DNA of 62,464 bases, taken from the NCBI GenBank assembly GCA_006386115.1, contig VFIW01000170.1, positions 1-62,464 on the forward strand, read 5' to 3'. Source of the stretch: Globisporangium splendens (lineage: Eukaryota; Oomycota; Peronosporomycetes; Pythiales; Pythiaceae). The translations under genes were made by a program, and so were the position numbers. The notes under the pieces were generated by a model. That model had not been told where the DNA came from and did no database searches. It saw only the letters and a list, made by a program, of their open reading frames with translations. How positions within the stretch are numbered: position 1 is the first letter of the stretch; every line of letters begins with the position of its first letter. Positions 11,197 to 48,300 of the stretch are shown one piece after another.

Positions 11197-12738
11197 ATGG
11201 CTGGAGGTGTGGTTGTGAACGTGAACAACAATTTGGACCATGACGCCCCCACGGAGGGTTCCAAGACGTACGCCATCATCGTGTGCGTCTTCGCGTCGCT
11301 CGGCGGTCTCTTTTTCGGTTATGATCAGGGTGTGACGAGTAGTGTGCTCATCATGAACTCGTTCCTCGAGGACTACTGCATCGGCTGGCACGGATTCACG
11401 CACGAGGACTGCATCAAGAGCGCGTCGGACTTGCCAAGCCAGTGGACGGACTTCACGCTCTGGTACAACATGGCGTACAACATTGGTTGCATCTTCGGTG
11501 CCCTGCTCGGTGGTATCGTCGCAGACAAGCTCGGTCGTCGCTACACGATCTTCACGGCTGGTGTGCTCTTCGTCATCGGCACGTGCTGGGTGTCGTTCAA
11601 CCCGGCGCACAAGCACGGTCTCATGTACATGGCGCGTATCGTCCAGGGTGTGGGTGTCGGCAACTCGTCGTTCTCGCTGCCGCTGTTCGGTGCCGAGATG
11701 GCGCCAAAGGAGTTCCGTGGTTTCTTTGCTGGCTTCATGCAGATGACGGTCGTGATCGGTCTCTTCCTTGCCAACTGTGTCAACATTGGTGTCGAGCACG
11801 TGGACGAAGGCTGGCGTATCACCAACGCCGTGGCCATGATCCCTCCAATCATTGTCATCTGCGGCATCTTCTTCGTGCCAGAGAGTCCTCGTTGGTTGTT
11901 GCAGCACAAGGGGAAGGAACAGGCAATGGCCAGTCTCAAGAAGCTTCGTCAAACCGAGAACGTGCACGTCGAGTTCGAATTGATTGCCGCCCAGCTCGCT
12001 GAAGAAGGCACGGAGACGAGCTACATGGATCTCCTCGAGCCGTCCATCTTGAAGCGTGTGATCATCGCGATGTTGCTCCAGGTGCTGCAGCAGGCGACCG
12101 GCATCAACCCGATCTTCTCGTACGGTGGTCTGATCTTCAAGGATGTGACGAACGCTGGTGCGGAGTCGGTGCTGATGCTGTCCGGCGTCAACTTCCTCAG
12201 TACGATCCCGGCCATGCGATGGGTCGACACGACGGGTCGTCGTCAGTTGCTCCTGGTCGGTGCTGTTGGCATGGTGCTCGGTCACTTGCTGTCTGCCATC
12301 GTGTTCACGGCCAGTTGTGATGGTAACGTCGATGATGCCGGTTGCCCCAAGGGCGCTGGCTGGATCATCGTGGTCGGCACGGCGTTCTTCGTGTTCAACT
12401 TTGCCATCTCGTGGGGTCCAGTGTGCTGGATCTACCCAGCCGAGATCTTCCCGATGAAGGTTCGCGCCAAGGCCGTGTCGCTCTCGACCATGGCCAACTG
12501 GCTCATGGGTGTGGCCATGACGTACGTCGTGAAGCTCTTCCCAGACTTGAACATCAACGGTGTGTTCTTCTTGTTCGCTGGCACTTGTTGCATCTCGGGC
12601 ACGTTCGTGTACTTTTTGTGTCCTGAGACGAAGGGAATCTTGCTCGAGGACATCGAGTACTTGTTCCACAAGGGGAGCAAGAAGCCGGGCATGTCTCCGC
12701 AGTACGTCGAAGTGGAGACGCCAGTCCAACAAGCCTAA
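11197..12738 (+). CDS. MFS sugar transporter, copy 1
   Basis: Plasma-membrane hexose transporter of the sugar-porter family (major facilitator superfamily), 513 residues, intronless. Signatures in order: GYDQGVTSS (41-49) in helix 1; KLGRR (111-115) in the loop between helices 2 and 3; PESPRWLL (228-235) before the central loop; QQATGIN (298-304) in helix 7, the usual sugar-binding segment; DTTGRR (344-349), the symmetric copy of the GRR motif; PAEIFPMKVR (414-423); and PETKG (476-480) after helix 12. Length and motif spacing are those of intact members. It is about 95% identical in protein to two copies 37 and 41 kb away. Substrate (glucose, fructose or other) cannot be told from sequence alone. 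A consensus oomycete initiator promoter precedes it. Confidence 0.95.
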   Translation: MAGGVVVNVNNNLDHDAPTEGSKTYAIIVCVFASLGGLFFGYDQGVTSSVLIMNSFLEDYCIGWHGFTHEDCIKSASDLPSQWTDFTLWYNMAYNIGCIFGALLGGIVADKLGRRYTIFTAGVLFVIGTCWVSFNPAHKHGLMYMARIVQGVGVGNSSFSLPLFGAEMAPKEFRGFFAGFMQMTVVIGLFLANCVNIGVEHVDEGWRITNAVAMIPPIIVICGIFFVPESPRWLLQHKGKEQAMASLKKLRQTENVHVEFELIAAQLAEEGTETSYMDLLEPSILKRVIIAMLLQVLQQATGINPIFSYGGLIFKDVTNAGAESVLMLSGVNFLSTIPAMRWVDTTGRRQLLLVGAVGMVLGHLLSAIVFTASCDGNVDDAGCPKGAGWIIVVGTAFFVFNFAISWGPVCWIYPAEIFPMKVRAKAVSLSTMANWLMGVAMTYVVKLFPDLNINGVFFLFAGTCCISGTFVYFLCPETKGILLEDIEYLFHKGSKKPGMSPQYVEVETPVQQA

Positions 12739-16824: not shown

Positions 16825-17373
16825 ATGAACAATGCCCAGCACGCCATCACCTCCGACGACTCCACTCGTGTTGGCCGCGGCGTGTGGACAACCGAAGAAC
16901 ACGACAAGTTCCTCGTGGGACTCAAGGCGTTTCCGGAGGGACCGTGGAAGGCAATCGCAGACCACGTCGGGACTCGGTCTGCACGCCAAGTGCAGACTCA
17001 CGCGCAAAAGTACTACGAGAAAGTAGCGCGACGCGTCCGTGGTCTCCGCAAGGACCGCAAGAAAGTAGTGCGCTCGGAGCACCGCATTGACGAAGCCCTC
17101 TTCGAGCTGCGCGTAGCTGACAAAGACGCCGCTGCTCTTGCTTCTCGAGGTCTGAAGGCAAATGTGCGCATGTCCCCAAGTACGTCCAGCAGCAGTAAGC
17201 CAAGCCATTCGACTGGAGCGCAGGTCAACCATCCCACTCCAATGACGGTCGATGACAGCTGCACGTCTGGAGATAGCGACTCGTCCTTGCACTTCCTCGA
17301 CGAAGACTGCTTGAACTTTCTCATCGCGATTCTCGACTCACAAGAGCTCGGTAACAGCTCGCCGTCGTCGTAG
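16825..17373 (+). CDS. SHAQKYF-type single-MYB transcription factor 1
   Basis: 182 residues, intronless. One MYB/SANT repeat near residues 18-70 begins GVWTTEEHDKFL and ends RQVQTHAQKYYEK, the oomycete form of the SHAQKYF signature, so a nuclear DNA-binding role is expected. A basic stretch (RRVRGLRKDRKK) follows and could serve as nuclear localisation signal. The C-terminal half is Ser/Thr-rich and acidic, ending with a short hydrophobic motif DEDCLNFLIAILDSQE that recurs in the other two copies and may be an interaction or activation motif. The start at 16825 is the first ATG suited to the promoter; the open frame upstream contains the initiator element. Confidence 0.9.
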   Translation: MNNAQHAITSDDSTRVGRGVWTTEEHDKFLVGLKAFPEGPWKAIADHVGTRSARQVQTHAQKYYEKVARRVRGLRKDRKKVVRSEHRIDEALFELRVADKDAAALASRGLKANVRMSPSTSSSSKPSHSTGAQVNHPTPMTVDDSCTSGDSDSSLHFLDEDCLNFLIAILDSQELGNSSPSS

Positions 17374-18190: not shown

Positions 18191-18735
18191 ATGGGCAATA
18201 CAACATCACTCACGCAGAGCAACGCGGTGTGTGGACAACCGAAGAACACGACAAGTTTCTCGTGGGACTCAAGGCGTTTCCGGAGGGACCATGGAAGGCA
18301 ATCGCAGACCACGTCGGGACTCGGTCTGCACGCCAAGTGCAGACTCACGCGCAAAAGTACTACGAGAAAGTAGCGCGACGCGTCCGTGGTCTCCGCAAGG
18401 ACCGCAAGAAAGTAGTGCGCTCGGAGCACCGTCTCGACGAGGACATGATCGAGCTGTGCAAGGACATGGAAGGCGACGCAGAGACCAAGGAGCTGGTGGA
18501 AGTTGAGCGCACACAAAGAGGGTTGAGCGCGATCGCCATGCGTCGGCGCAGCGCTTCACCCAATGCTGTGGATTCGTTGAGCGCGTCGCCAGACGAAGTC
18601 AAGGTCGAAGAAGACGAGCTTTGCTTAAAAGGAGTCGATTCGTCCCTTGCATGTCCTGATCAAGAGTGCCTGGACTACCTGGTTTCTGTCCTCGAGGCGC
18701 ATGAAAGCAGCGTGGAAGTAGAAACCTTTGTTTGA
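18191..18735 (+). pseudogene. SHAQKYF-type MYB 2, N-terminus frameshifted
   Basis: The MYB repeat (GVWTTEEHDKFL to THAQKYYEK), the basic stretch and a C-terminal acidic region ending DQECLDYLVSVLEAHE are intact in one frame to the stop at 18735. That frame has no in-frame ATG between an upstream stop near 17986 and the MYB repeat. The first ATG after the promoter (18191) lies in another frame, about 13 codons before the repeat, so one base appears gained or lost. A short intron is possible: an ATG at about 18080, a GT in GCCAGGTGG near 18116 and an AG in CACGCAG near 18217 would restore the frame. However, that ATG precedes the initiator. The gene is either a recent pseudogene, an assembly error or an unusual spliced gene. 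Confidence 0.65.
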
Positions 18736-20122: not shown

Positions 20123-20683
20123 ATGCACGACAGCACGGCAAACAACAACACTTCGACGCCACAAAGCCGTGGTGTGTGGACTACAGAGGAGCACGACCGG
20201 TTCCTCGTCGCGCTCAAGGACTATCCGCAGGGACCCTGGAAAGCCATCGCGGAGTACGTCGGCTCGCGATCCGCTCGTCAGGTGCAGACCCACGCCCAAA
20301 AGTACTACGAGAAAGTTGCTCGTAGGGTACGGGGGCTGCGCAAGGACCGCAAGAAGGTCGTGCGCTTGGAGCACCGCCTCGACGAAGACATGACCGACTT
20401 GTGCAAGGACGTCGCGGGGGACGAAGAGCTAGCTGCGCAAGTGGAATCCACACGGCGTGGCTTGAGCGCGATGGCGATCGCGATGCGTAGACGGATTCCA
20501 CCGCCAAGCGCTGACCAGACGACTTCGTCACAGGAACACAAAGAAGAAGAAATCGCACCAGAACTCACGGAGCCGCAAGCAATGAGATCGTCGGAGGATA
20601 GCGACTCGTCGTTGTCACCGCTGGACGAAGACTATTTGAGCTACTTGATCTCGATCCTCGAGTCTAGGAACTTCGATCAGTGA
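20123..20683 (+). CDS. SHAQKYF-type single-MYB transcription factor 3
   Basis: 186 residues, intronless, with the same layout as MYB 1: a short polar N-terminus, a MYB repeat (GVWTTEEHDRFL to THAQKYYEK, about residues 14-66), a basic stretch (RRVRGLRKDRKK), then a Ser- and Glu-rich region and a terminal motif LDEDYLSYLISILESRN equivalent to the ends of MYB 1 and 2. It is more diverged at the DNA level from MYB 1 and 2 than they are from each other. A nuclear regulatory role is inferred from the family. Confidence 0.9.
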   Translation: MHDSTANNNTSTPQSRGVWTTEEHDRFLVALKDYPQGPWKAIAEYVGSRSARQVQTHAQKYYEKVARRVRGLRKDRKKVVRLEHRLDEDMTDLCKDVAGDEELAAQVESTRRGLSAMAIAMRRRIPPPSADQTTSSQEHKEEEIAPELTEPQAMRSSEDSDSSLSPLDEDYLSYLISILESRNFDQ

Positions 20684-21165: not shown

Positions 21166-22386
21166 ATGTCCATGCCCCATCCTCTCCCCGAATTCGTCAA
21201 GGCTCCACGCCTATGCGAATGGAGCCAGCAGGCTCTCGTGCGTTTCGCCCGAGAGCGCAAGCAGTACGAGGAGAAGATGAAAGAGCGATGCCGCGTCACG
21301 GGCGAAGCCGAGAGTAACGTGACCAGTGGGTCAAAGTCGTCGCTCGAGCCTCGGATCCTCGATCACCTATCGCACTATGTCCTGAAGAAGGACGTTTTTG
21401 AAGTGAACGACGCGGACCTCCGGGGGCTTATCGACAAGAAGATTGGACGTGTGATGGACGACCACGTACCAGACATGGTGCCACTCTTTGCCGAGAATCT
21501 CAAGATGGACCTCCGGCAAGTAGACATAGAGGGGCGCATAGCGAAGTACTTCATGGAATTTGAGCGTCTTGTGGAGGAGAATGGCCTAACCTCGATGATG
21601 GGCCGTTGCTCGACACACATCGAAGCGGGGCGACAGCGAATGAAGGTCCGTTGTAAGATTCTGATCCAAAACGTGCAACCTGAGGTTTTGCGCGTTGAGA
21701 TCACGCGTCTCGCTGACTTGACCCACCGCAACATTGAGACTGACGACAGCGCACTCCACGACATGATTGTCGATCGGGCTACGCGGCAGCAGCGATACCA
21801 CCTCATCCAGTGTGAGGTGCGTGGCCAAGGAGGTAAAAAGCAGCGAGAGGCCGTTATTGAGGGCAAGGATACTTCGAGCAAAGGCAAGCCAAGGGCAATT
21901 CCAAAAGACAAGCAAAGGGAAATGCCGGCTGCGCCACGATCAGGGCGCTGGGTGTGCAAGGGTGAGCATTGGCTTCGTGACTGTCCGACTGCGACCGCAG
22001 TGCAGAAAGTGGAAGCAAAGCGCAAGATGACTGAAACCAGGGAACGCCGTGGTGACCGACTCAAGCGCGTGACCGAAGCTGCACCGACGCCTGTGTTTCG
22101 AACAGCCTTAGTGAATGGAATTCTCGAAGTGCCGTTCTGCTCTGACACAGGAGCGGACACCAACATCGTCGGACAGGCAATAGTGGATGAACTCGCGGGT
22201 CTCTCGGGTGAGCTCACAATAACTCCTGTGAGCCCACCATTGGAATTTCGGGTGGCCGGTGGTGCAATTATGCGCTGCGATGAGAAAATCTCGCTCAGTA
22301 TACGCATCAGCACGGCTGCAGGCCCACTACAGTTGCATGCCATCGAGTTTCTGATACTAGATGGCGAAGATGAACTTCTGGTGGGG
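21166..22386 (+). pseudogene. Retroelement gag + retropepsin fragment, cut by E1
   Basis: About 407 residues from the ATG at 21166 to the LTR boundary. The N-terminal two thirds look like a capsid/gag protein (Arg- and Glu-rich, helical). A degenerate zinc knuckle (WVCKGEHWLRDCP) lacks the second Cys. A retropepsin follows with the active site SDTGADTNIV, then a strand typical of the family (EFLILDGEDELLVG). The frame is then broken by the LTR of E1 at 22387; the few further codons to 22485 are LTR sequence. RT and later domains are missing, so this is a relic of a different LTR element from E1-E3. I cannot assign the family. Confidence 0.7.
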
Positions 22387-23037
22387 TGTAATGGGGCGCT
22401 GTTCACAACAGTCCCCAAAACACGGCACACACGCTTGTGCGACGAGGAAGCAATCCCGACTTGGAGGGAGAGAAGAACGACTTGAGGGCTTGAGAGAAAA
22501 TTTGCAACTGAATTAAAATGCTTATGGTTCCTGTCGCTACTTGTAAATGAACCCCAAGGGATCCTACACGTTCTATAACTAAAACCTAAACATACACAAT
22601 AAAACCTATGAATCTGATATATAAAACCTTGGGTACACTGAGGTTGAACCCACGAGATCTTCGATAAACTTGAACTTGAAGTCCCGTGGAAAACTCCCTG
22701 CAAAGTGATTGGCTACAGCCACTCACTTTAGGTGGCAGACACACGTCGGTCTCATCACCAGTGCAGTTTCCCAAGTAGGAACAATCACTCAGTACTTGAT
22801 TAGTACATGGATGTCATCACTCTGTACTGATTAGTACATGTGAACAACATTCTGCCCTGATCAGCACAGAGAGCGCTCGTGACGTCATGGGATGACGTCA
22901 CATGTGCATGTGGGGACTGTCGTACTGTAATCCCTTTGTTAATTGTCTCTCCACAATGCACACTGAAGGTGGTGTGCGGCACACTAGATCTGGGAACAGA
23001 TCCACCTTCATGTAATGGCTAGGTATAGCCCATTACA
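22387..23037 (-). repeat. 3' LTR of E1 (LTR-a)
   Basis: Begins TGTAATGGG and ends CCCATTACA (9-bp terminal inverted repeat). It contains a TTTATATATCAG TATA-like stretch, repeated GTACT-GATTAGTAC motifs (about 22795-22840) and two TGACGTCA palindromes at 22880-22887 and 22893-22900. Confidence 0.9.
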
Positions 23038-23096: not shown

Positions 23097-23112
23097 TCAC
23101 TTTCCAATCGGC
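23097..23112 (+). promoter_or_regulatory. Antisense initiator-like promoter in E1
   Basis: TCACTTTCCAATCGGCC matches the oomycete initiator plus flanking element and ends just before the antisense ATG at 23114. The same sequence, with a better CAATT flank, precedes the antisense ATG of E2 (46017-46033). E3 has one mismatch. Confidence 0.55.
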
Positions 23113-23113
23113 C

Positions 23114-24181
23114 ATGAAGCGACCAAGTGACCAAGTAAACCGTGAAGAACGTCCGTCGTCCAAGCGACAGCAGACAGCTCCAGAACTCTTCGACGTATCC
23201 TCCATTCTGAAGAAGAAGGGGGATCTCGAGTTCTACAAGGAGCGGTTCTTCAGTTGGCGTCGGATCAACGATCGCGATGATCCGAACCAACCCATCGCAG
23301 CCCAGAGAGACTCATGGCGAACATTCGTTCGTCTTGAGAACGAGAACAAGATGGAGCGTCTTCTTCGTCGTGGCAATGCTCGTGCCCAAAGAAGAACTCC
23401 TGCTGACGACAGAGCGAATCCCAGCTCTGGTCGTCGTAGTGTCACCCCTGGCGACGCTACAAGTGGTTCTCGTAGCTGCGGACCACGTCGGGAACATCAG
23501 ACTCCATCGTCTGCCGTGGTTCCCACGTGTCCGAGCTCGGTGGATATCCACGCCACCGAACTCTGTAGAAGCGTTGAGGGTTCAACCGCTTCTTTCCTCG
23601 ACGATGAGTCGGTCGATCTTCGTGATCAACAATCGACTCAACCACCCAGCGATGATCTCCCTGAGAGTCTATCAATGGGGGTGGGGCTGAACGCGAAAAC
23701 GATTGAGCGACTCTGGAAGTGGAAGAGTGCTCATCGCGCTCAGATCGAGACACTGGAAGTTCGCGATGCGATCCTTTCGGATCGGTGCGAGAGCCTCGAG
23801 GACCAAGTGAAGGAGCAGGAGTCGCGGATCGACTCGCTGACCTTTGGTCCCGCTCAGTATCGGGCTTTGGAGTCCCGTTTCGAGCAACGGTTCGAGCAAG
23901 TCCAGGGCGAACTCGAGCGACTCCAAAAGGCTGAGAAGGCTCGTGAAATGCATCACGAACGTCTACTGCGCTCTGTGGAAGAGGCAGGGACGGCTCTTGA
24001 GGTACTCCGCAAGGAGTATAACTCGCGCCTTCTCGTGCTGGAAGCTGTGAAGGAGGAGTCCTTCGATGTGCTTCAGCGCCTTTACGCTGAGAAGAATCTC
24101 CAAAGCGATGAGCTGTTTGCTCTTCGCAATCAAGTGGAGAGTCTTCAAGATCAGCTTGATCGTTTGCGGAAGATCTCGTAG
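23114..24181 (+). CDS. Antisense coiled-coil protein of E1 (aORF)
   Basis: 355 residues, encoded opposite to E1 gag-pol. Residues 1-115 lie beyond the pol stop and overlap nothing; the rest is antisense to the pol linker and chromodomain. The N-terminus (MKRPSDQV, KRQQTAPELF, FYKERFFSWRR, RTFVRLENEN) is basic and conserved in E2 and E3. The middle is Ser/Pro/Arg-rich. The C-terminal 150 residues are a long heptad-bearing coiled coil (EQRFEQVQGELERLQKAEKA, then LRNQVESLQDQLDRL). The start is chosen at the Met conserved in all three elements, just after an initiator-like sequence. I recognise no family. Function is unknown; by analogy with antisense proteins of other retroelements (HTLV-1 HBZ, Ty1 antisense control) a regulatory role is possible but only inferred. 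Confidence 0.65.
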   Translation: MKRPSDQVNREERPSSKRQQTAPELFDVSSILKKKGDLEFYKERFFSWRRINDRDDPNQPIAAQRDSWRTFVRLENENKMERLLRRGNARAQRRTPADDRANPSSGRRSVTPGDATSGSRSCGPRREHQTPSSAVVPTCPSSVDIHATELCRSVEGSTASFLDDESVDLRDQQSTQPPSDDLPESLSMGVGLNAKTIERLWKWKSAHRAQIETLEVRDAILSDRCESLEDQVKEQESRIDSLTFGPAQYRALESRFEQRFEQVQGELERLQKAEKAREMHHERLLRSVEEAGTALEVLRKEYNSRLLVLEAVKEESFDVLQRLYAEKNLQSDELFALRNQVESLQDQLDRLRKIS

Positions 24182-27100
24182 GATCAGCTGATCCGCTTGG
24201 AAGGTAAGGCTTTAGTCTACCCACATAAAATGTAGGGTGTAGACGCATGCGTGTAGGTATGTCTAGCGTGTAGGCATCACCATTGCATTTAACTACCCTG
24301 AACGGTCCAATGAACCTTGGCAGAAGCTTCGAGCTTCCCAAGTTGGACACTGCATGTTCAGGCAGATTTGCCGCACTAAGCAATACAAGATCATTGATCT
24401 TATACACTTGCTTGTTCTTCCTTCCGCTCTTGTCTGCTTGTTCCTTTTGCAGATCCTGAGCCTTCGCGATTGCGTCTCGGACAAACCTCACAACGGCTTG
24501 TCTCCTCACAATAAAGTCATCGACTTGCTGTTCCTCACGACTTGTCATGTCGTCTAGAGGTTTCATCGAGTCAAAATTCGCTTTTAACTCTGTGACAGCA
24601 TTCAGGTCTGACTGTGGCTCCTTAGCCATAGTCCCTCCCCCACTTAAGGTAGAAACCTCTCCTACTAGTGACGCTGGCACTCGAGGGTGAATACCATAGT
24701 TCACACAAAATGGAGAGTGACCTGTCGAGACATGCGTGGAGTTGTTCAACGCAAACTCGGCAAGAGGGAGAAACTCACTCCACTCTTTGAAAGACGTCGC
24801 ATAACTGCGCAACACGTCTTCAAGGACACGATTCACTCGTTCAGTTTGACCATCCGTTTCAGGATGTGCCGCTGTTGACATGGACAACTTGGTGTCCAGA
24901 AGTCCGAACAGTGCACGCCAGAACTTGGACGTAAACCGAGTGTCACGGTCAGACACGATCTCAACTGGCAGGCCATGCAGACGGAATACGACGTCTACAA
25001 AGACCTTGGCCGTCATTTCGGCTGAGATCTTGTCCGAAACCGGCGCAAGATGGACCATCTTGCTGAATCGGTCCACAAACACAAGGATGCCATTGCGTCC
25101 GTGTTTGTCTCTTGGAAGTCCGAATATGAAATCCATACTCACAGACTTCCAACTGTCCGATGGGACAGCCAATGAACGAAGTGGTGCCTGAGTGGAACCA
25201 GAAGGTTTCACTCGTTGGCAGATCTCGCAAGTCCTCACATACTTGCGCACCCACTTGTACATGTGTGGCCAATAGTAATCCCGGGAAAGACTGAGAAACG
25301 TTTTCTCACGTCCGAGATGGCCACCCGAAGGACTGTCATGGTACTCGTACAAGAGTCGATGACGCAGACCTTCGTCGTTGGGAACAACAACCCTTGCTGT
25401 ATCCCCTTGTTCAACCGCGTAGTACAACAATCCATTGTGTACTCGGAAGCGGTGAACTCGCGACCTTGTTCGAGCAGGCAAGCTCTGCAGTGCTTTGTCC
25501 GAAGGGTCCTTGAAATACTTCAACAAGTCCTGACATGTTTCGTCAGACTTGTACCCTTCGACGATCTCTTCTCGCACTGTCGTCGTTGCTTGCACTGCGA
25601 TCGCTTGAACATCTTCACAGAGTCGACACGCTCCGTCCGTGTCTTCACTCTTGGACTTTGGATCATAGTCCGGACGTCTTGAAAGCGCATCGGCTAAGAT
25701 GTTCGTCTTGCCTGGCTTGTAGTGTACAACAAAGTTGTACTCTGCAAAGAAGGAGAACCATCTCGCCATTCTTTGCGATAAGTGAGGAGTCTTTACCGCT
25801 GTACGCAGCGACGCATGATCTGTGTAGATCGCAAAGCGCTCCTCGCCAAGCAGATACACACGGAACTTGACCAAAGAATACTTCATCGCCAGAAGTTCTT
25901 TGTCATGGACTGGGTAGTTCCGTTCTGCGGGTCGGAGTTGTCGTGACTGATACGACACAACTCGCTCATGACCCTCATCATCGTGTTGCATCAAGGCGCA
26001 ACCGATGGCATAGTCGCTTGCATCGCAAACCACATGAAAAGGCTTGTCGTGGTTTGCAATTGCCAGCACGGGAGCTTCTCGCAAACTCCTCTTGACTTCG
26101 GCAAACGCTGCTTGGTGGTCGCTGGACCACTCCCACTCAATGTCCTTCTTCAGGAGCTGTGTGAGGGGTTGCACCAACGCTGCATAATTGCGCGTGTACT
26201 TGTGCAAGTAGTTGGCCAAACCCAACCATTGTCGTAGCTGTTTGACATTCTGAGGCACAGGCCAATCGTCCATAGCTTTGACCTTCTCCGGATCAACTCG
26301 AACGCCATGCTTTCCCACAAAGCAGCCGAGAACGGGGATCTCTGGTGCAAAGAATATGCACTTCTTCAGGTTAGCGTAGAGCTTGTTCTCTCGCACATGC
26401 CCAGCCTTAGCACGTTGCGCAAAGAACTCGTCGATCGCAACGACTTGTCCTCTTGGCAACGGCCACTGCCGTGTGATACAATACTTCGTGCCAGGAAGTA
26501 TGTCAATCTCGTGACGAACGCCTCTATCGAATGGCAGTTCGTCCGGCACCTTGTCAGGGAATATGTCCTCATATTCCTTGACAAGTTCATACACGGGGTT
26601 CGTCTTGAGAGCGTCCCATGACTGCTCCTCGAACCTTTCCTTCCGTGTCTTCTCATCGAACACTTCAGCCTCCGTTGCTGATACTGTGTTGATGTCTTCT
26701 GCATCGTCAATATCGACGATCATGCAGACCTGCGAAATTTCGCCTTTCGCTAGGCTACGCTTCAGCGTCTTCTTGCTCATCCATGGCAAGGAAATCAACT
26801 CTTCGACTGAGCTTGGAGGATTTTCGACTTCAATGTGACGCATTACGTTGCTGTCACCATCTTCATTGTAGACCAAGACGTTCACGTATTCACTCGAAGT
26901 GACTCTTGCTTGGACACTTCCTTCGTCATCTTGACTTGTACCTTGATCAGGGGCACACGTTGCGCTTGCAACACTTGACGATAATTTCTTCTTTTTCTTG
27001 GTCGTCTTGTCTCGGGATGGCTCTTCGGCTCTTTTCCCATACGTTTCTTCCACGCACATCGCCTCATCCATGGGATCGATGGCAAAGGAGACAGTCTTTT

Positions 27101-27767
27101 TCTGGCGCCTGACTGCTCCACCTCCAGTAGTCTTCTTCAAGATGGGTACCGCTCGTGAACATGGGGGGCCATCGCACACCGCAATATCACGAGGGTCATC
27201 TGGGATCTCTTCGACAGATGTGTAAACCCACACCACTTCATCCGTTGTCACACAGCTCAAGTCAGCATCGTGTGACTTGTCAACGGAGATCTTCATCTTC
27301 ATCCAGTCAATGCTAGGTTGATAACGCTTCAACCATGGCATTCCCAGAATCAGATCAAACTTGTCATCGAGGTCGAGTAGAATAAACTCGTCTTCACCTC
27401 GGAAATCTTCACACTTGATTGCCAAGCGCACCACGCGCTTTGGCATCTTCACAGTTGACCCGTTGGCCAACCGGATAATCATCGTCTTCTCTTCATTCGC
27501 ATCAGGCATTGATACTTTATGCCTGACGATCACTTCATTTCGAACAAAGTTGTTCGACGCACCAGTGTCAACCAAAGCACGTAGAGGCGTTGCAATACCG
27601 TCTACATGAACTTTGAGAACGATCAAACTTGACGTTTGATTGACACTGTTCTCCCTCGTGGAAACTGCATGTGCATCATGCACATTGGGGCCAGAGTCCT
27701 GTGTTTCCACAAACACAGTCCTCTTTTCGAGCCCAGTAGGAGGCCCCGCCCCTACTGGTCGTTCCCG
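23457..27767 (-). CDS. E1 pol polyprotein (RT core deleted)
   Basis: Reached from gag by a -1 shift at 27773-27767. Domains in order: retropepsin (LVDTGASNNFV); a remnant RT (start EIDILPGTKYCITRQWPL, end ENKLYANLKKCIFF, then the connection); RNase H (FHVVCDASDYAIG, FAIYTDHASL); integrase zinc finger (HLGREKTFLSLSRDYYWPH, CEICQRVK) and catalytic core (MDFIFGLPRDKHG, FVDRFSK, HPETDGQTERVNR); a Pro/Ser-rich linker; and a chromodomain (WVVESIVDHEDRP, FYRVRWRGYPPSSDTWEP). About 154 residues of RT, including the YFDD catalytic motif present in E2 and E3, are missing between two copies of CTCTCGCA. The frame stays open, so the protein could be made but would lack polymerase activity. Confidence 0.85.
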   Translation of the reverse strand, partial: RERPVGAGPPTGLEKRTVFVETQDSGPNVHDAHAVSTRENSVNQTSSLIVLKVHVDGIATPLRALVDTGASNNFVRNEVIVRHKVSMPDANEEKTMIIRLANGSTVKMPKRVVRLAIKCEDFRGEDEFILLDLDDKFDLILGMPWLKRYQPSIDWMKMKISVDKSHDADLSCVTTDEVVWVYTSVEEIPDDPRDIAVCDGPPCSRAVPILKKTTGGGAVRRQKKTVSFAIDPMDEAMCVEETYGKRAEEPSRDKTTKKKKKLSSSVASATCAPDQGTSQDDEGSVQARVTSSEYVNVLVYNEDGDSNVMRHIEVENPPSSVEELISLPWMSKKTLKRSLAKGEISQVCMIVDIDDAEDINTVSATEAEVFDEKTRKERFEEQSWDALKTNPVYELVKEYEDIFPDKVPDELPFDRGVRHEIDILPGTKYCITRQWPLPRGQVVAIDEFFAQRAKAGHVRENKLYANLKKCIFFAPEIPVLGCFVGKHGVRVDPEKVKAMDDWPVPQNVKQLRQWLGLANYLHKYTRNYAALVQPLTQLLKKDIEWEWSSDHQAAFAEVKRSLREAPVLAIANHDKPFHVVCDASDYAIGCALMQHDDEGHERVVSYQSRQLRPAERNYPVHDKELLAMKYSLVKFRVYLLGEERFAIYTDHASLRTAVKTPHLSQRMARWFSFFAEYNFVVHYKPGKTNILADALSRRPDYDPKSKSEDTDGACRLCEDVQAIAVQATTTVREEIVEGYKSDETCQDLLKYFKDPSDKALQSLPARTRSRVHRFRVHNGLLYYAVEQGDTARVVVPNDEGLRHRLLYEYHDSPSGGHLGREKTFLSLSRDYYWPHMYKWVRKYVRTCEICQRVKPSGSTQAPLRSLAVPSDSWKSVSMDFIFGLPRDKHGRNGILVFVDRFSKMVHLAPVSDKISAEMTAKVFVDVVFRLHGLPVEIVSDRDTRFTSKFWRALFGLLDTKLSMSTAAHPETDGQTERVNRVLEDVLRSYATSFKEWSEFLPLAEFALNNSTHVSTGHSPFCVNYGIHPRVPASLVGEVSTLSGGGTMAKEPQSDLNAVTELKANFDSMKPLDDMTSREEQQVDDFIVRRQAVVRFVRDAIAKAQDLQKEQADKSGRKNKQVYKINDLVLLSAANLPEHAVSNLGSSKLLPRFIGPFRVVKCNGDAYTLDIPTRMRLHPTFYVGRLKPYLPSGSADPTRSSANDQADLEDSPLDCEEQTAHRFGDSSQRKGAEAHRRTPPSQLPAREGASYTPCGVPQEPSLPLPQSAVDVRDAFHEPSQPFGVARVRPGLARTVARNGTPKPDTERDQRSASRSATPAPSLGPRGSRTDPKGSHRELPVSRSERDEHSSTSRVAQSFSRSAPPPLIDSQGDHRWVVESIVDHEDRPTHRRGKKRLNPQRFYRVRWRGYPPSSDTWEPRQTMESDVPDVVRSYENHL

Positions 27768-27773
27768 TTTTTT
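27733..27773 (-). promoter_or_regulatory. -1 ribosomal frameshift signal, E1 gag-pol
   Basis: The slippery heptamer A AAA AAC (27773-27767) is in the gag frame. An 8-nt spacer follows, then a hairpin with arms 27758-27751 (CCAGTAGG) and 27740-27733 (CCTACTGG), extended by GGC/GCC with a GGG loop and one bulged base. The gag stop TAG is inside the 5' arm. See the E2 site for the compensatory change. Confidence 0.75.
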
Positions 27774-28807
27774 GAACGTTGGGAACGATCGAACCCACGG
27801 CCGCGACCGTAGTTGTTCGAGCGCGAACCCTGTGTCGTTTGCCGGTCAGGCAAGGACACTTTGCAGTTCCGAGCGAAGTGACCCGACTTCCCACAACGGA
27901 AACATTTTCCATCGTTGCGAGGACGTCCATTTCCAGGCGTGGAAATGTACGAGATGTCCATCGGCTCTGGGCCATCGTGCGCGACATTCGCTTGTCTTGG
28001 TGGCCTTGACGGAAACCCTTGGAACTTGGCTTGCTTGATGCTGAACTCTTCTTGCATCGCACGGCTGATGGCTTCGTCCAGCGTCTTGGGATACTCACGG
28101 AACAATTGGTTCCGGATTGGCCCGTCGTTCAGACCCGTCATGAACGTCACGACTTGCGTTGGAACGTCAATCGGCTCGTCCACGATGCTTGAGACCAGGA
28201 AGCGCGCTCGTTGTGCATACGAATGCAGATCGAAACGGCCTTGGCGGAGCTTGAGGAACTCGGCACGCGCACGGAACTCGCTCTGCGGTGGTTCAAACGC
28301 TGCCTTGAGCTCTGCCTTGAAGTCTTCGTAGCTGTAGAAGCAGTTTGGATCTGACAAACGCTTCCCATAAGCCCAGCTCTTTGCACGACCCGCAAGGTTG
28401 GACATCGCGAACAACACTCGCTGCATTGGGTCACGAAGTTGTCTTGCAGTGATAGCTGCATCCAACTCGACGAACCATCTCGAAAGAGGCTCGTTCTCTC
28501 CGCCACGATACGGAGAGACATCCAGCTTCAGCGGCACCGTCCTGAAGGACGAAACAGGGGTTGCGACCTGCTTTCGAGATTCAATAATCTCGTGGTGCAT
28601 GAAACTGACCGCGGCGTTCTTCTGGTCTTCAGGAGACGCCGATCGTAGCAGGCTGATTACAGTAGCCTCCCCGATGACGTTTCGCATCCGCTCCAGCGCC
28701 GACCACTCATAAGAAGACAAATGAGGAAAATACTCATTCGTCAACTCGACAGTTTCCGGTACTGCTGGACCGAGTGGCACATCTACTCCTTCCATGTTCT
28801 CAGACAT
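27752..28807 (-). CDS. E1 gag (capsid + CCHC nucleocapsid)
   Basis: 351 residues from the ATG at 28807 (MSENMEG; a second Met four codons on is the one conserved with E2). The central region (LDVSPYRGGENEPLSRWFVE, ARQLRDPMQRVLFAMSNLAG, EFLKLRQGRFDLHSYAQR) is the usual Ty3/gypsy capsid (retrotrans_gag) type. A CCHC zinc knuckle CFRCGKSGHFARNC binds RNA near the C-terminus, followed by a basic Gly/Arg/Ser tail. The frame ends at TAG 27754-27752, four codons after the slippery site. Intact, unlike pol. Confidence 0.9.
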   Translation of the reverse strand: MSENMEGVDVPLGPAVPETVELTNEYFPHLSSYEWSALERMRNVIGEATVISLLRSASPEDQKNAAVSFMHHEIIESRKQVATPVSSFRTVPLKLDVSPYRGGENEPLSRWFVELDAAITARQLRDPMQRVLFAMSNLAGRAKSWAYGKRLSDPNCFYSYEDFKAELKAAFEPPQSEFRARAEFLKLRQGRFDLHSYAQRARFLVSSIVDEPIDVPTQVVTFMTGLNDGPIRNQLFREYPKTLDEAISRAMQEEFSIKQAKFQGFPSRPPRQANVAHDGPEPMDISYISTPGNGRPRNDGKCFRCGKSGHFARNCKVSLPDRQTTQGSRSNNYGRGRGFDRSQRSKNGNDQ

Positions 28808-28891
28808 AGACGGATGTAGGTCTTGGACAGGAATGCGCGAAGTGCTCAAAGCCGCTTCGTCAAACCTTTCTTGACTTGGTCGCTGGAAGGA

Positions 28892-28911: not shown

Positions 28912-29560
28912 TGTAATGGGGCGCTGTTCACAACAGTCCCTTAAACACGGCACACACGCTTGTGCGACGAGGAAGCAATCCCGACTTGGAGGGAGAGAAG
29001 AAGACTTGAGGGCTTGGAGGAAAATTTGCAACTGAATTAAAATGCTTATGGTTCCTGTCGCTACTGTAAATGAACCCCAAGGGATCCTACAGGTTTTATA
29101 ACTAAAACCTAAACATACACAATAAAACCTATGAATCTGATATATAAAACCTTGGGTACACTGAGGTTGAACCCACGGGATCTTCGAGAAACTTGAACTT
29201 GAAGTCCCGTGGAAAATTCCCTGCAAAGTGATTGGCTACAGCCACTCACTTTAGGTGGCAGAGACACGTTGGTCTCATCACCAGTGCAGTTTCCCAAGTA
29301 GGAACCATCACTCAGTACTTGATTAGTACATGGATGTCATCACTCTGTACTGATTAGTACATGTGAACAACATTCTGCACTGATCAGCACAGAGAGCGCT
29401 CGTGACGTCATGGGATGACGTCACATGTGCATGTGGGGACTGTCGTACCGTAATCCCTTTGTTGTTTGTCTCTCCACAATGCACACTGAAGGTGGTGTGC
29501 GGCACACTAAATCTGGGAACAGATCCACCTTCATGTAATGGCTAGGTATAGCCCATTACA
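28912..29560 (-). repeat. 5' LTR of E1 (LTR-b)
   Basis: 649 bp, TGTAATGGG...CCCATTACA, same features as LTR-a, with several scattered differences from it. The right end abuts an internal LTR site of opposite orientation at 29561. Confidence 0.9.
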
Positions 29561-29699
29561 TAAGCATTTCAATTCAGTTGCAATTTTACCCTCAAGTACT
29601 CAAGTCATCTTCTCTCCCTCCAAGTCGGGAGATCGCTTCCTCGTCGCACAAGCGTGTGTGTCGTGTTTTGGGGACTGTTGTGAACAGCCCCCCATTACA
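29561..29699 (+). repeat. Partial LTR, opposite orientation
   Basis: 139 bp corresponding to the last part of the same LTR family, from TAAGCATTT to CCCCATTACA, in plus orientation. Its GGGAGATCGC and CTCAAGTACTCAAG variants match LTR-e (44780-45432) rather than LTR-a or -b. Confidence 0.85.
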
Positions 29700-31610: not shown

Positions 31611-32217
31611 TGTAATGGGCTAAGGCTGCCATTACATGCAAGGTGGCTCTTTGTGTGTGTCACACACCACCTTGTGGAAGTGCATTGTGGGTGCGAAGAT
31701 ATTGGGTGAAACACATAATAGTGATCCCCACATGCACAGGTGACGTCATCGTCTGACGTCAGAGCAATCTGTGTCTGAGTTGAGTGTTGGTCGCTCGCAA
31801 TCATTGAGATTCGGCGTGATTACGCACAACAGTACTCTAGACACGTGAGTGATGGTTCCTACTTGGGAAACTGCACTGGTGATGAGACCGACGTGTCTCT
31901 GCCACCTAAAGTGTGGCGCGAGCCAATCACTTTGCAGGGAATTTTCCACGGGACTTCAAGTTCAAGTTTCTCGAAGATCCCCTGGGTTCAACCTCAGTGT
32001 ACCCAAGGTTTTATATATCAGATTCATAGGTTTTATTGTGCATGTTTAGGTTTTAGTTATAAAACCTCTAGGAGCCCTAGTGGTGTTTTACATGTAGTGT
32101 CAGGAACCATAAGCTCATTTCAATTCAGTTGCATTTTTGCCAAGTTCCTCTCAAGTCTTCCTCTTCAAGCGCAAGCGTGCGTGCCGTGTTTGAGGCTGTC
32201 TCGGATAGCCTCTTACA
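31611..32217 (+). repeat. 5' LTR of E2 (LTR-c)
   Basis: 607 bp, TGTAATGGGC to CCTCTTACA. It shares about 250 bp of core (about 31845-32065, with TTTATATATCAG at about 32009) with the E1/E3 LTRs but has different ends. Two TGACGTCA palindromes at 31741-31748 and 31754-31761. Confidence 0.9.
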
Positions 32218-32219
32218 CC

Positions 32220-32238
32220 TGGTAGCACTTCGTAGTCC
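32220..32238 (+). other. Primer-binding site of E2
   Basis: TGGTAGCACTTCG two bases after the LTR, identical over 13 bases to E1 and E3. Confidence 0.65.
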
Positions 32239-32324: not shown

Positions 32325-33368
32325 ATGGAAGGGATTGAGACGCCGATGGGCTCGATGCCTGGAGAGACCGTGGAGCTGACGAATGAGCATTTTCCTCATT
32401 TGTCGAGCCACGAGTGGGCAGCCCTCGAGCGTATGCGAGCGGTCATCGGTGATGCGGCTGTGATCAGTTTGCTGAGATCAGCGTCACCGGATGAGCAGAG
32501 GAACGCGGCTACGAGCTTCATGCATCACGAGATCATGAACTCTCATCGACAGCCCGCAACTCCTGTCACGACGATGAGAGTGGCACCTCTGAAGCTCGAT
32601 GTATCTCCGTACCGTGGCGGAGAGAACGAACCTCTAGCGAGATGGTTCGTTGAGTTGGATGCAGCGATCACTGCAAGACAACTACGGGACCCAATGCAGC
32701 AAGTGTTGTTTGCGATGTCAAACCTTGCGGGCCGAGCGAAGAGTTGGGCGTATGGGAAGCGATTGGCGGAGCCACATTGCTTCTACGACCTGGACGACTT
32801 CAAGCGAGAGCTGAAGAAGGCTTTTGAGCCTCCGCAGAGCGAATTTCGGGCTCGCGCTGAGTTCTTAAAGCTTCGTCAGGGTAAATACGACCTACACTCG
32901 TACGCTCAACGAGCACGATACCTCGTGTCAAGTATCGTGAATGAGCCGATTGATGCCTCAACGCAAGTTGTGACATTCATGGCAGGGCTCAATGATGGTC
33001 CAATTCGGAACCAGCTGTTCCGCGAGTACCCCAAGACGCTGGGTGAAGCCATCGAGCGAGCGATGCAAGAAGAATTCAGCATCAAGCAAGCCAAGTTCAA
33101 CGGTTTCGGCCCTCGCCCTGTTCGACAACACGCAGTCACACACGACGGTCCAGAACCGATGGACATCTCGTATGCCGATGCGACTACAAGCAGATACCCA
33201 CGCAATGACGGGAAGTGTTTCCGTTGTGGCAAGCCCGGTCACATCGCAAGAAATTGCAAGGTGTCCTTACCAAGCCAGCGAGCGACACACGGTTCGCAAT
33301 CGAATCGACCAGGCAGAGGCCGGCGATTCGAGCGTTCCCAACAGCCAAAAAACGGGAACGACCAGTAG
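32325..33368 (+). CDS. E2 gag (capsid + CCHC nucleocapsid)
   Basis: 347 residues. Ty3/gypsy capsid region (SPYRGGENEPLARWFVELDA, REAEFLKLRQ-like segment) with zinc knuckle CFRCGKPGHIARNC at residues 298-311 and an Arg/Gly-rich tail. Start ATG 32325 (MEGIETPMG), conserved with E1 and E3. The stop at 33366-33368 is four codons past the slippery heptamer. Intact and clearly related to, but diverged from, E1 gag. Confidence 0.92.
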   Translation: MEGIETPMGSMPGETVELTNEHFPHLSSHEWAALERMRAVIGDAAVISLLRSASPDEQRNAATSFMHHEIMNSHRQPATPVTTMRVAPLKLDVSPYRGGENEPLARWFVELDAAITARQLRDPMQQVLFAMSNLAGRAKSWAYGKRLAEPHCFYDLDDFKRELKKAFEPPQSEFRARAEFLKLRQGKYDLHSYAQRARYLVSSIVNEPIDASTQVVTFMAGLNDGPIRNQLFREYPKTLGEAIERAMQEEFSIKQAKFNGFGPRPVRQHAVTHDGPEPMDISYADATTSRYPRNDGKCFRCGKPGHIARNCKVSLPSQRATHGSQSNRPGRGRRFERSQQPKNGNDQ

Positions 33369-33387
33369 GAGCGGGGCTCCCTACTGG
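33347..33387 (+). promoter_or_regulatory. -1 ribosomal frameshift signal, E2 gag-pol
   Basis: A AAA AAC at 33347-33353, with AAA and AAC being gag codons. The pol frame is exactly -1. An 8-nt spacer is followed by a hairpin: CCAGTAGG (33362-33369) with CCTACTGG (33380-33387), plus inner AGC/GCT around a GGG loop and one bulged C at 33379. In E1 and E3 the inner pair is GGC/GCC: A-T has become G-C with both partners changed, which supports pairing in RNA. Geometry matches known -1 frameshift signals. Confidence 0.8.
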
Positions 33388-36238
33388 GCGAACAAAGAGT
33401 TCTGTGAATGTCGTGGAAGCGCAGAACTCTTGCCCCGGTGTGCGCAACGCACATGAAGTTTCCGCGAACAGATGTGAGCGTGTCGAGCAAGAGCCAGCCT
33501 TGATAGTCCACAAGGTTAAGGTAGATGGTTACTCAGAACCTCTACGGGCTCTTGTAGACACTGGTGCGTCGAACAATTTTGTCCGCACACAAGTGGTGAG
33601 AAGGCAAGGTTTGGACCTGCCTATCTCGAACAAGGAAATGATCGTTCGCTTGGCGAATGGATCGAAAGTGACGATGCCTAAGCGCGTGTTGCGTATGGCA
33701 ATCGAATGTGATGATTTCCGAGGCGAAGATGAGTTTATTCTACTCGACCTCGATGACAAGTTTGATCTGATTCTGGGAATGCCCTGGTTGAGAAGGTACC
33801 AACCGAGCATTGACTGGAAGAAGAAGAAGATCAGCGTCGACAAGCAAGTCGACGAAGACCTCAGCTGCCAGGCAGCAAGAGAGGTGATTTGGGCATATAC
33901 ATCTGTTGAAGATGTGTCTAATGAGAGTCAGGCGTGCGATGGCCCCTCACACTCAAATGACAAGCCCGTGAAGACCACTGGAGGTGGAGTAGTCAGGCGC
34001 CAGAAAAAGACTACTCCTGTAGCCAAGAGCGATGAAGAGTTCCGCTCTGGCAGGGTTAAAGAAGACAAGAAGACCGACGAAGAAGAACGAAGATCTGCAA
34101 GCGTCCCTGATCAAGACACAAGAGAAGCAGAAGATGAAGTGAAGCGACAAGAACAAGCCACTTCAAGCGAATATGTGAACGTCGCAGTCTACAATGAAGA
34201 AGGTGACAGCCAGATAGTGCGTCACGTACAAGTTGAAAATCCTCCAAGTCTGGCTCAAGAATTGATTTCCTTGCCGTTGATGAGCAAGAAGACGCTTAAG
34301 CGTAGCCTGGCGAAAGGCGAAATTTCGCAAATTTGTGCGATCGTCGATGAAGTTGCCGACGATGTCATCAACACTGCGGAAGTGTTAGATGAGAGAACAC
34401 GGAAGGAGAGGTTTGATGAGCAGTCGTGGGACGCTCTAAAGACAAACCCCGTGTATGGACTTGTCAAGGAATATGCGGACATATTTCCAGACAAAGTGCC
34501 GGACGAATTGCCGCAGGACAGAGGCATTCGTCACGAGATAGATGTACTTCCGGGAACGAAGTACTGTATCACGAGGCAATGGCCGCTACCGAAGGAACAA
34601 GTCGATGCGATCGACGAGTTCTTCGCGCAGCGACAGAAGGCTGGCCATGTGCGCGAGAGCAAGTCTCCGCACTGTAGTCCCACCTTCTGTGTGAAGAAGG
34701 CCACAGGCGGTTGGCGCATTGTTCACGCATTCAACAAATTGAATGATGCGACCATACCTGCTCAGACCCCAGTTCCACGCAAGGATATGATCCTTGATGG
34801 AATGGTTGGCAGCACTGTCTTTAGCGCGATCGATCTGAAAGACGGGTTCTATCAGATTCGAATGCGCGAGAGCGATGTACCATTTACAGCAGTTAGCACC
34901 CCTAGTGGTATGCTGTGGGAGTGGATGGTGATGCCACAAGGTCTGAAGAACGCACCAGCAACTTTCAACAGAATGGTCACGAATGTACTTCATCCATTGA
35001 GAGAGTTTGCACCGAGCTACTTTGACGACATATTCGTTCATAGTAAGGCCTCGGAAGGGAAGAAAGATGTCGATGTTCATCTTGAACATCTTCGTCAAGT
35101 CTTTCAAGTTATGCGTGAGAACAAACTGTACGCTAACTTGAAGAAATGCATCTTCTTCGCCCCCGAGATCCCTGTACTCGGTTGCTTTGTTGGCAAGAAT
35201 GGCGTTCGGGTCGATCCTGAGAAGGTCAAGTCTATCGACGATTGGCCTATTCCTCAGAACATCAAACAGCTACGTCAGTGGCTGGGTTTGGCCAACTATT
35301 TGCACAAATACACGCGCAACTATGCAGCGTTAGTGCAACCCCTCACGAGTCTTTTGAAGAAAGATAATGAGTGGGAATGGTCAGAGGAACATCAGGCAGC
35401 GTTTGCCAAAGTAAAGAAGAGCTTAAGAGAAGCTCCTGTCCTAGCTCTCGCAGACCATGAGAAGCCGTTCCATGTAGTCTGCGATGCGAGCGACTATGCC
35501 ATCGGGTGTGCACTGATGCAACACGATGATGAGGGCAAAGAAAGAGTTGTGTCGTATCAGTCACGACAACTCAGGCCCGCAGAACGGAACTATCCGGTCC
35601 ATGACAAGGAACTATTGGCCATGAAGTATGCATTGGCAAAGTTCCGAGTCTATTTGCTTGGTGAAAAGCAGTTCGCTATTTACACTGATCACGCATCACT
35701 GCGGACAGCTGTAAAGACGCCTCACCTATCGCAAAGAATGGCAAGATGGTTTTCCTTCTTCGCTGAGTACAACTTTGTTGTACATTATAAGCCCGGCAAG
35801 TCAAACATTCTTGCCGATGCGCTGTCAAGACGTCCGGATTATGATCCGAAGAACAAGAGTGACGACACGAACGGAGCGTGCCGACTCTGTGAAGACGTCA
35901 ACGCGATTGCTACGGGAGTGACAAGCACAGTCCAAGAAGAGATCACTGAGGGATACAAGCAAGACGAAGCATGCCAAGAACTGATCAAGTATTTCAAGAA
36001 TCCCTCAGAGAAGGCACTCCAAAACCTCCCACCAAGAGCAAGATCGCGTGTTCACCGTTACAGCATGCACAATGAGCTGCTGTACTATACGGTTGACGAA
36101 GGGGATCCAGCGAGGATCGTTGTCCCCAACGACGAAGGTCTGCGTCATCGACTCTTGTACGAGTATCATGACGGTCCTTCGAGTGGCCATCTCGGACGTG
36201 AGAAAACGTTTCTCAACTTGTCTCGAGATTACTACTGA
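33353..36238 (+). pseudogene. E2 pol, N-terminal part (protease, RT, RNase H), ends at TGA
   Basis: Retropepsin DTGASNNFV at 33557; RT with TFCVKKATGGWRIVHAFNKL, SAIDLKDGFYQIRM, MPQGLKNAPATFNRM and YFDD at 35018-35029; RNase H FHVVCDASDYAIG, YTDHASLRTA and NILADALSRRPDYD; then the integrase zinc-finger start HLGREKTF. The frame stops at TGA 36236-36238, where E1 and E3 have TGG (DYYWPHMYK). One G-to-A change explains it; all other codons are open, so the loss is recent or tolerated by readthrough. Confidence 0.88.
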
Positions 36239-37812: not shown

Positions 37813-38462
37813 TGTAAGAGGGCGCTGTTCACAACAGTCCCCAAAACACGGCACACACGCTTGTGCCAGAGGAAGCAATCCCGACTTGGAGGGAGAGAAG
37901 AACGACTTGAGGGCTTGGTGGTAAAATTGCAACTGAATTAAAATGCTTATGGTTCCTGTCGATACTTGTAAATGAACCCCAAGGGATCCTACACGTTTTA
38001 TAACTAAAACCTAAACATACACAATAAAACCTATGAATATGATATATAAAACCTTGGGTACACTGAGGTTGAACCTACGGGATCTTCGAGAAGCTTGAAC
38101 TTGAAGTCCCGTGGAAAATTCCCTGCAAAGTGATTGGCTACAGCCACTCACTTTAGGTGGCAGAGACACGTTGGTCTCATCACCAGTGCAGTTTCCCAAG
38201 TAGGAACCATCACTCAGTACTTGATTAGTACATGGATGTCATCACTCTGTACTGATTAGTACATGTGGACAACATTCTGCACTGATCAGCACAGAGAGCG
38301 CTCGTGACGTCATGGGATGACGTCACATGTGCATGTGGGGACTGTGTTACCGTAATCCCTTTGTTAATTGTCTCTCCACAATGCACACTGAAGGTGGTGT
38401 GTGGCACACTAAATCTGGGAACAGATCCACCTTCATGTAATGGCTAGGTATAGCCCATTACA
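37813..38462 (-). repeat. 3' LTR of E3 (LTR-d)
   Basis: 650 bp; the outer end reads TGTAAGAGGG instead of TGTAATGGGG. Paired TGACGTCA sites are present. Closest to LTR-a and LTR-b. Confidence 0.88.
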
Positions 38463-48040: not shown

Positions 48041-48300
48041 TTTAGAACAGATTACAGAGAACACCGACTTGCTTTAGGACTGAAAAGAACAAACCAGCAT
48101 GCAATGCGCCAACAAGACCAGCTAAGAGAAAAGCATTGATTTCAATGAATACTATATTCCACGATCAATACATAAACGGTTGTTTTGATCCTCACTCGAA
48201 GAGAGATATAGAAAACCCCAGAAAACTGTAGTCTCCTATGTATTCTACAGGCTCAGCGAGATCAACAGCAACGTCAATCATCGCCCTCGTGGTCGCTCAC

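Follow-up and report, generated by a model that had tools for sequence, protein, structure and literature searches.

The 62,464-nucleotide (nt) stretch of Globisporangium splendens contig VFIW01000170.1 that we analysed, called the window below, carries three related Ty3/gypsy retrotransposons (E1, E2 and E3), and a preliminary description had pointed to an open reading frame (ORF) in each that runs opposite to gag-pol, begins with the residues MKRPSDQV and ends in a long coiled coil. The question raised by this locus is whether such a frame, about two thirds of which overlaps pol, is a gene in its own right. We found that it is under purifying selection where it faces no pol, and that within the overlap constraint is partitioned between the two strands. 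The antisense frames lie as follows:

23114–24181, plus strand: E1 antisense ORF, the subject of this work, 355 residues, opposite pol
38539–39609, plus strand: E3 antisense ORF, 356 residues
45433–46016, minus strand: N-terminal part of the E2 antisense ORF, an open frame
37326–37812, minus strand: C-terminal part of the E2 antisense ORF, cut from the N-terminal part by the nested E3

MKRPSDQV opens the antisense protein in all three elements as had been described, the lengths being 355, 356 and about 349 residues, the last from uninterrupted E2-type copies elsewhere in the genome, which have a 349-residue frame. The N-terminal part of E2 was free of stops as the preliminary description had stated, and its C-terminal part in the window has a single in-frame stop after five codons and is open from there to its end; another frame for that part, which was tried first, was rejected for its many stops. 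In E1 the ATG at 23114 falls between the edge of the 3' long terminal repeat (LTR) at 23037 and the pol stop at 23457, 76 nt inside the LTR edge. Codons 1–114 (23114–23455) lie past the pol stop, in good agreement with the first ~110 residues originally placed there, and codons 115–355 overlap pol. Over codons 1–114 all five other frames contain stops (3, 6, 1, 1 and 3).

When we searched the genome (53.3 Mb, 195 contigs) for copies, the start was present in all 60 loci fetched and a frame of at least 342 residues in 54 of them (29 of 30 E1-type and 25 of 30 E2-type). The preliminary description had considered that internal stops might turn up in most family members. The E1 query gave 6 copies with such stops out of 114 scored (best of 483 candidates), the E1 N-terminal query 5 out of 150 (best of 386) and the E2 N-terminal query 16 out of 150 (best of 433). 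Since scored copies and fetched loci alike were chosen by best match, these counts are biased to intact frames and overstate intactness.

Selection outside and inside the pol overlap

Over codons 1–114, E1 and E2 differ at about one third of sites, and the ratio of nonsynonymous to synonymous change (dN/dS) was 0.231 in a codon alignment (p = 2.2e-8 by a Fisher test of synonymous versus nonsynonymous change) and 0.31 in a nucleotide alignment (p = 5.6e-6); for the first ~110 residues taken apart from the overlap the ratio is thus 0.23–0.31, far from 1. The other two frames of the same strand gave 0.83 and 1.01. Changes at the three codon positions numbered 34, 30 and 49 (p = 0.07, nucleotide alignment), a third-position excess that by itself is only suggestive. 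In a neutral simulation of the E1–E2 divergence, the frame stayed open in 152 of 5000 runs with a protein identity of at most 50%, and the observed identity (61 of 108 residues, 56%) lies above every open simulated case. Codons 1–114 are under purifying selection, and the earlier suggestion that the pattern in this non-overlapping DNA exceeds chance withstood the simulation.

The preliminary description had built on this part, holding that open frames in the overlap are expected by chance. Its view of the non-overlapping part stood, and the case is stronger than it had supposed, as the coil part is also selected for the antisense protein. Third positions of pol codons are second positions of antisense codons, and second positions of pol are third positions of the antisense frame, and because of this register effects on the two genes are separable. 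Where it faces the pol chromodomain (codons 115–192), the antisense frame gave a dN/dS of 2.27 between E1 and E2, against 0.29 for pol. Across from the pol linker (codons 193–355) the ratios were 0.27 for the antisense frame and 1.55 for pol between E1 and E2, 0.26 and 1.80 between E1 and E3, and 0.24 and 2.38 between E3 and E2, with Fisher p-values for the antisense frame over the coil of 5.6e-9, 2.2e-9 and 1.2e-11, respectively. In the 1 kb beyond the antisense stop, the pol dN/dS between E1 and E2 was 0.07. The same reversal appeared in the E1/E2 changes by position: antisense second (pol third) and antisense third (pol second) positions changed in a ratio of 22:49 within the coil, and of 76:8 over the 1 kb that follows the antisense stop. 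This flip between coil and pol-only DNA was significant for all three pairs (Fisher p = 4.8e-15 for E1/E2, 1.6e-8 for E1/E3 and 1.1e-18 for E3/E2), and so was that between the chromodomain and coil stretches for E1/E2 (4e-4) and E3/E2 (2.2e-4). Constraint is partitioned between the strands: it falls on pol opposite the chromodomain, on the antisense frame opposite the linker, and on pol again past the antisense stop.

Several points temper this picture. For E1/E2, relaxation did not reach significance alone, either in the antisense frame across from the chromodomain (p = 0.079) or in pol across from the coil (p = 0.082), and E1/E3, with just 7 changes opposite the chromodomain, gave 0.85 and 0.73, which does not separate the frames. 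The element pairs share sequences and hence are not independent. Finally, the Nei–Gojobori (NG86) method is not calibrated for overlapping frames, so we take the contrast between stretches as the evidence and not the exact dN/dS values. With these reservations, dN/dS, Fisher tests and simulation lend strong support to the proposed antisense accessory protein as a product of selection; control of expression or copy number, the other part of the proposal, would be a further, putative step.

Predicted protein, promoter match and LTR sites

We built an AlphaFold2 model of the antisense protein with 20 relatives. Its predicted parts, and the E1 pol features beside them, are these:

23198–23392, plus strand: predicted four-helix N-terminal domain (AlphaFold2), codons 29–93, outside pol
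23393–23662, plus strand: predicted disordered stretch, codons 94–183, of low confidence; codons 117–179 face the pol chromodomain
23663–24175, plus strand: predicted single long helix (coiled coil), codons 184–354, opposite the pol linker
23457–27716, minus strand: E1 pol ORF, 1419 residues
23463–23648, minus strand: E1 pol chromodomain (PF00385), pol residues 1357–1418
23649–24203, minus strand: E1 pol linker, 185 residues, of which PSTEQKRDNG make up 73%, facing the antisense coiled coil
24204–24392, minus strand: E1 pol SH3_Tf2-1 domain (PF24626); the antisense ORF ends 22 nt short of it

The N-terminal helices were predicted at residues 29–35, 38–51, 61–76 and 80–93, with a block predicted local distance difference test (pLDDT) score of 79–88 over residues 41–90, and mean identity over residues 25–93 was 60% among 12 members. 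The long helix runs for about 170 residues at a block pLDDT of 87–98 from residue 191, and a hydrophobic periodicity of 3.5 was detected in it in all five members tested (p from 0 to 0.036, 2000 shuffles each), the strongest period in E1's own helix being 3.14. The coiled coil that had been placed at the C-terminal end thus stands as a prediction, from AlphaFold2 and the heptad periodicity. With the order or disorder of the pol linker judged from composition alone, order on one strand is predicted to coincide with a loose stretch on the other.

The N-terminal part is basic (net charge between +8 and +10 in each of four members calculated), and a cluster resembling a nuclear localization signal (NLS) is present in 63 of 68 proteins versus 52% of shuffles. 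Several observations are less favourable to a nuclear, LTR-directed role: the frequency of the NLS-like cluster exceeds by a modest margin what composition alone gives, no basic leucine zipper (bZIP), TRP28 or other recognised domain was found in the E1 antisense protein by Pfam, and the E1 Pfam rows were coil-type or weak and all under their cut-offs. Neither the bZIP families nor PF04195 were among the 8 Pfam families listed for E1 at E ≤ 1, a range in which HMMER filters discard most matches above 0.1. The N-terminal domain model matched no known fold, so DNA binding by this domain is unsupported. On the coil side there were 29 weak matches at E ≤ 1, LINE-1 ORF1p chains among them.

Upstream of the antisense ATG, and in the LTRs, we noted the following:

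23097–23112, plus strand: initiator (INR) match TCACTTT at 23097–23103 and a stretch like the flanking promoter region (FPR) at 23106–23112, directly ahead of the E1 ATG
23011–23037: palindrome TGTAATGG...CCATTACA where the E1 LTR comes closest to the antisense ORF, the LTR terminus forming one of its arms
22387–23037, minus strand: E1 3' LTR, 651 nt; twin TGACGTCA at 22880–22900
28912–29560, minus strand: E1 5' LTR, 649 nt, 97.1% identical to the E1 3' LTR; twin TGACGTCA at 29403–29423
37813–38462, minus strand: E3 3' LTR; twin TGACGTCA at 38305–38325
44780–45432, minus strand: E3 5' LTR; twin TGACGTCA at 45275–45295
31611–32223, plus strand: E2 5' LTR, limits by blastn; twin TGACGTCA at 31741–31761
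46093–46706, plus strand: E2 3' LTR, limits by blastn; twin TGACGTCA at 46223–46243

The oomycete INR is YCAYTYY and the FPR MWTTTNC, with a usual gap of 2 nt (PMC3599244). The stretch before the ATG reads TCACTTT, 2 nt, AATCGGC in E1 and TCACTTT, 2 nt, AATTGAC in E2, so that the INR fits fully in both and the gap is the usual one. In 55 of 60 loci there is an exact INR 11–17 nt ahead of the ATG. The 17 nt ahead of the ATG are identical at 15 positions between E1 and E2, compared with 21 of the preceding 58 (ungapped). These matches suggest that the antisense gene may have a promoter of its own. Less favourable to this are the FPR half, which fits at 5 of 7 positions in E1 and 6 of 7 in E2, and the 5 of 60 loci in which the exact INR is missing, E3 included, where the copy in the window is one base off.

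Each of the six LTRs holds two TGACGTCA sites 13 bp apart, and 12 of the 14 occurrences in the window are inside LTRs (2.1 expected window-wide; maximum of 6 in 100 shuffles). We take this octamer to be a cAMP response element (CRE)/bZIP site. Among 60 loci, 49 have both sites exact, 9 have one and 2 have neither, and the 30-column bin of the LTR alignment with the twin sites is identical between E1 and E2 at 26 of 30 columns, the adjoining bins at 17 and 18 of 30. Set against a special role for the sites, the LTRs (512 of 697 identical overall) hold other well-conserved islands, reaching 30/30 in a 30-column bin, and the twin sites thus form one such island out of several. In all six LTRs the terminus is repeated on its inner side as an inverted copy (TGTAATGG-N10-11-CCATTACA), and all 60 loci examined show the same arrangement upstream of the start. 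The terminal palindrome, one arm of which is the LTR terminus, could serve integrase or a dimeric regulator.

Relatives, element architecture and neighbouring features

The protein family comprised 84 members, namely 64 named G. splendens (63 with FI667_ tags), 19 from jgi/ena/lgn contigs, and the window's own. The 19, which we took for proteins of other oomycetes, were 43–77% identical to E1 in 18 cases and 88% in one (P0009), and diverged relatives retain the motifs around FY-RFF-WR and SWRTFV-LENE. The frame is conserved in two diverged element families within one genome and in the jgi/ena/lgn proteins; because the relatives are predicted proteins, open frames are built into these data. No family members were confirmed in viral or prokaryote contigs. 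The draft gene models of G. splendens came from AUGUSTUS with transcriptome hints (PMC7163027), and for that reason the prediction of many copies as genes is suggestive of transcription without proving it.

Between E1 and E3, divergence was 0–7% over the first ~200 antisense codons and 0–8% in the 240 nt beyond the coil end, and 15–43% at 23741–24100 (E3 ~39169–39528), in the coiled-coil stretch. It thus appears that the coiled-coil stretch has been exchanged between element families with near-identical flanks. One further locus (L064) has a coil that is E1-like in its first part and E3-like in the remainder, and in protein trees P0057 grouped with E2-type proteins by its N-terminal domain and with E3-type proteins by its coil (coil fork support 92/88, below the starred level). 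As pol shows mosaic patches too (24521–24700, 13–18%), exchange is not unique to the coil.

The remaining parts of the elements are as follows:

27752–28849, minus strand: E1 gag (Retrotrans_gag, zinc knuckle)
38885–41551, minus strand: E3 pol, 3' part
41567–43966, minus strand: E3 pol, 5' part, an ORF of its own
33215–37812, plus strand: E2 pol region as far as the nested E3, two ORFs, the second continuing to 37924 inside the E3 LTR

The Pfam models on E1 pol were protease, RNase H, integrase, SH3_Tf2-1 and chromodomain. About 150 reverse transcriptase residues have been lost in frame from E1 pol relative to E2 and E3 (junction 26381–26396), and since among the 40 scored genome matches (of 566 candidates) only the window's own copy spans the junction, the loss looks private to E1. 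LTR pairs are 95.7% identical in E3 and 99.0% in E2. No matching short target duplication was seen by eye in the E1 flanks (22380–22386 and 29561–29567), and therefore the E1 copy may be recombinant or its flanks altered.

Elsewhere in the window there are three copies of a sugar-transporter-like ORF (11197–12738, 48301–49842 and 52083–53624), of which the first was scanned for PF00083 and the other two were assigned through 89–99% repeats; the latter two occupy the arms of an inverted repeat (99%, 48186–53739). Three direct repeats were seen at 16876–17112, 18223–18459 and 20168–20404 (78–95% to the first), the last inside an ORF (20123–20683) with a Myb-like DNA-binding domain. A large ORF at 54320–57646 combines protein kinase, SnoaL-like and weak PH matches.

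Possible roles and related systems

The account that we favour, and to which we give about an even chance, is that E1, a Ty3/gypsy element with a chromodomain, carries an antisense protein-coding gene that purifying selection maintains and whose product is likely a nuclear coiled-coil oligomer acting back on transcription from its own LTR. Its transcription, nuclear location and LTR feedback are what we infer. Sites in the 3' LTR and the internal INR would drive an antisense mRNA, and the protein would enter the nucleus, oligomerise through its coil and modulate sense transcription of the element, possibly in that it pairs with a host bZIP factor at the twin TGACGTCA sites or displaces it there, as human T-cell leukemia virus (HTLV) antisense proteins do at the LTR. 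The low-complexity pol linker would offer room to encode a coil without harm to integrase or chromodomain. Precedents exist for several of these steps: Grande GENE23 is nuclear and has its own promoter (as cited in PMC7264820), HBZ of HTLV-1 blocks CREB-2/Tax at sites in the LTR, and even without a bZIP APH-2 can interact with CREB (PMC10186651).

Of the alternatives, a selected accessory protein for replication seems to us possible if rather unlikely; in it the basic domain and long coil would act as a nucleic-acid chaperone or carry the integration complex into the nucleus. The charge of the N-terminal part (net +8 to +10 in four members), the long coil and the LINE-1 ORF1p chains among the 29 weak coil-side matches would suit such a protein, and a pre-integration-complex role has been discussed for antisense proteins of this kind (PMC7264820), although the coil matches are generic and separate antisense expression would be odd for a particle component made in step with Gag. 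We are more doubtful still of a convergent HTLV-like circuit, a bolder form of the feedback idea, in which twin CRE (bZIP) sites drive the LTRs, an antisense coil overprinted on a sacrificial, disordered integrase linker sits on a bZIP factor and lowers sense transcription, and exchange of coil modules sets which elements cross-regulate. That the protein is an anti-silencing factor, freeing the element from silencing by host chromatin or small RNAs, appears improbable: the frame is open in many copies and small RNAs of Phytophthora infestans map to gypsy elements on both strands (PMC3522703), but there is no sequence or fold link to a known suppressor and nothing specific to this role. Antisense RNAs do act through double-stranded RNA or interference in some elements (PMC7264820), yet an acting RNA with an incidental open frame is very improbable here, as amino acids are under purifying selection in two separate stretches; the codon patterns reject RNA as the sole explanation and leave it as an added function at most. 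Long antisense frames do occur opposite genes, and overlapping ORFs are many in the window, but a chance frame forced by pol composition has next to no probability and is rejected by strand-wise dN/dS, Fisher tests and the neutral simulation, codons 1–114 facing no pol and pol being the unconstrained frame in the coil region.

The feedback account can be set beside several known systems. Among described classes the nearest, not named in the preliminary description, is aORF-3R, the additional antisense ORFs that plant and fungal LTR elements have between pol and the 3' LTR (Grande GENE23, RIRE2, PvRetro13 and Boty; PMC7264820). With it the E1 frame shares its orientation antisense to gag-pol, its start between pol and the 3' LTR (though codons 115–355 overlap pol) and its retention in most copies (54 of 60 best-match loci, E1-type and E2-type). 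PvRetro13 ORF2 has an SMC-type region (PMC7264820), and some antisense ORFs in the Retand paper match Smc domains (PMC11963269). E1 differs from aORF-3R in that about two thirds of its antisense gene overlaps pol with partitioned constraint, in its oomycete host and in the chromodomain of its pol; the aORF-3R proteins were compared with E1 in sequence through Pfam only. Retand TRP28 (PMC11963269) is likewise an antisense protein beyond pol, but E1 is without PF04195 among its 8 listed families at E ≤ 1, and Retand elements, unlike E1, are non-chromovirus with 2.9–6.6 kb between pol and the 3' LTR.

As in HTLV-1 (HBZ) and HTLV-2/3/4 (APH), the antisense gene lies beside the 3' LTR (PMC10186651). 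HBZ has a zipper and the HTLV LTR has sites for CREB-type factors (PMC10186651), while here twin TGACGTCA sites occur in six LTRs. The likeness to HBZ drawn in the preliminary description therefore held for layout, with the LTR sites an unexpected parallel, and did not extend to bZIP, no such family being among the 8 listed for E1 at E ≤ 1; the INR match, unlike in HBZ, is inside the element and not in the LTR, and we claim no relationship. The other likeness drawn there, to Ty1 antisense products, is weaker, as these are non-coding RNAs. In human immunodeficiency virus 1 (HIV-1) the segregated overlaps lie on the same strand, unlike those of the antisense gene and pol, which are on opposite strands. 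They resemble the present case in that one gene dominates selection per stretch, with a structured versus a disordered partner (PMC9119678). Among oomycete elements, Chronos (PMC5348765) is also a Ty3/gypsy element with a chromodomain (PF00385 in E1); it carries a plant-type RNase H (aRNH), whereas the RNase H models listed for E1 and E2 pol at E ≤ 0.1 are all RT_RNaseH. The word "antisense" is absent from the main text of that paper, and we found no description of an antisense protein in oomycete elements in the literature searched, which within that literature agrees with what the preliminary description had supposed. The antisense accessory class is already known; what appears new, within the literature searched, is its overprinting on pol with strand-partitioned constraint, and its oomycete host.

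LTR retrotransposons have long been known to carry antisense accessory genes to which no function is assigned. The E1 gene offers a clean case, in which selection can be read strand by strand with boundaries that follow protein domains, and in which the core-promoter match and LTR sites offer direct starting points for experiments. With it the class reaches oomycetes, and opposite-strand overprinting with partitioned constraint is seen in a retrotransposon. If the regulatory reading is true, feedback by an antisense coil would have arisen independently in retroviruses and retrotransposons.
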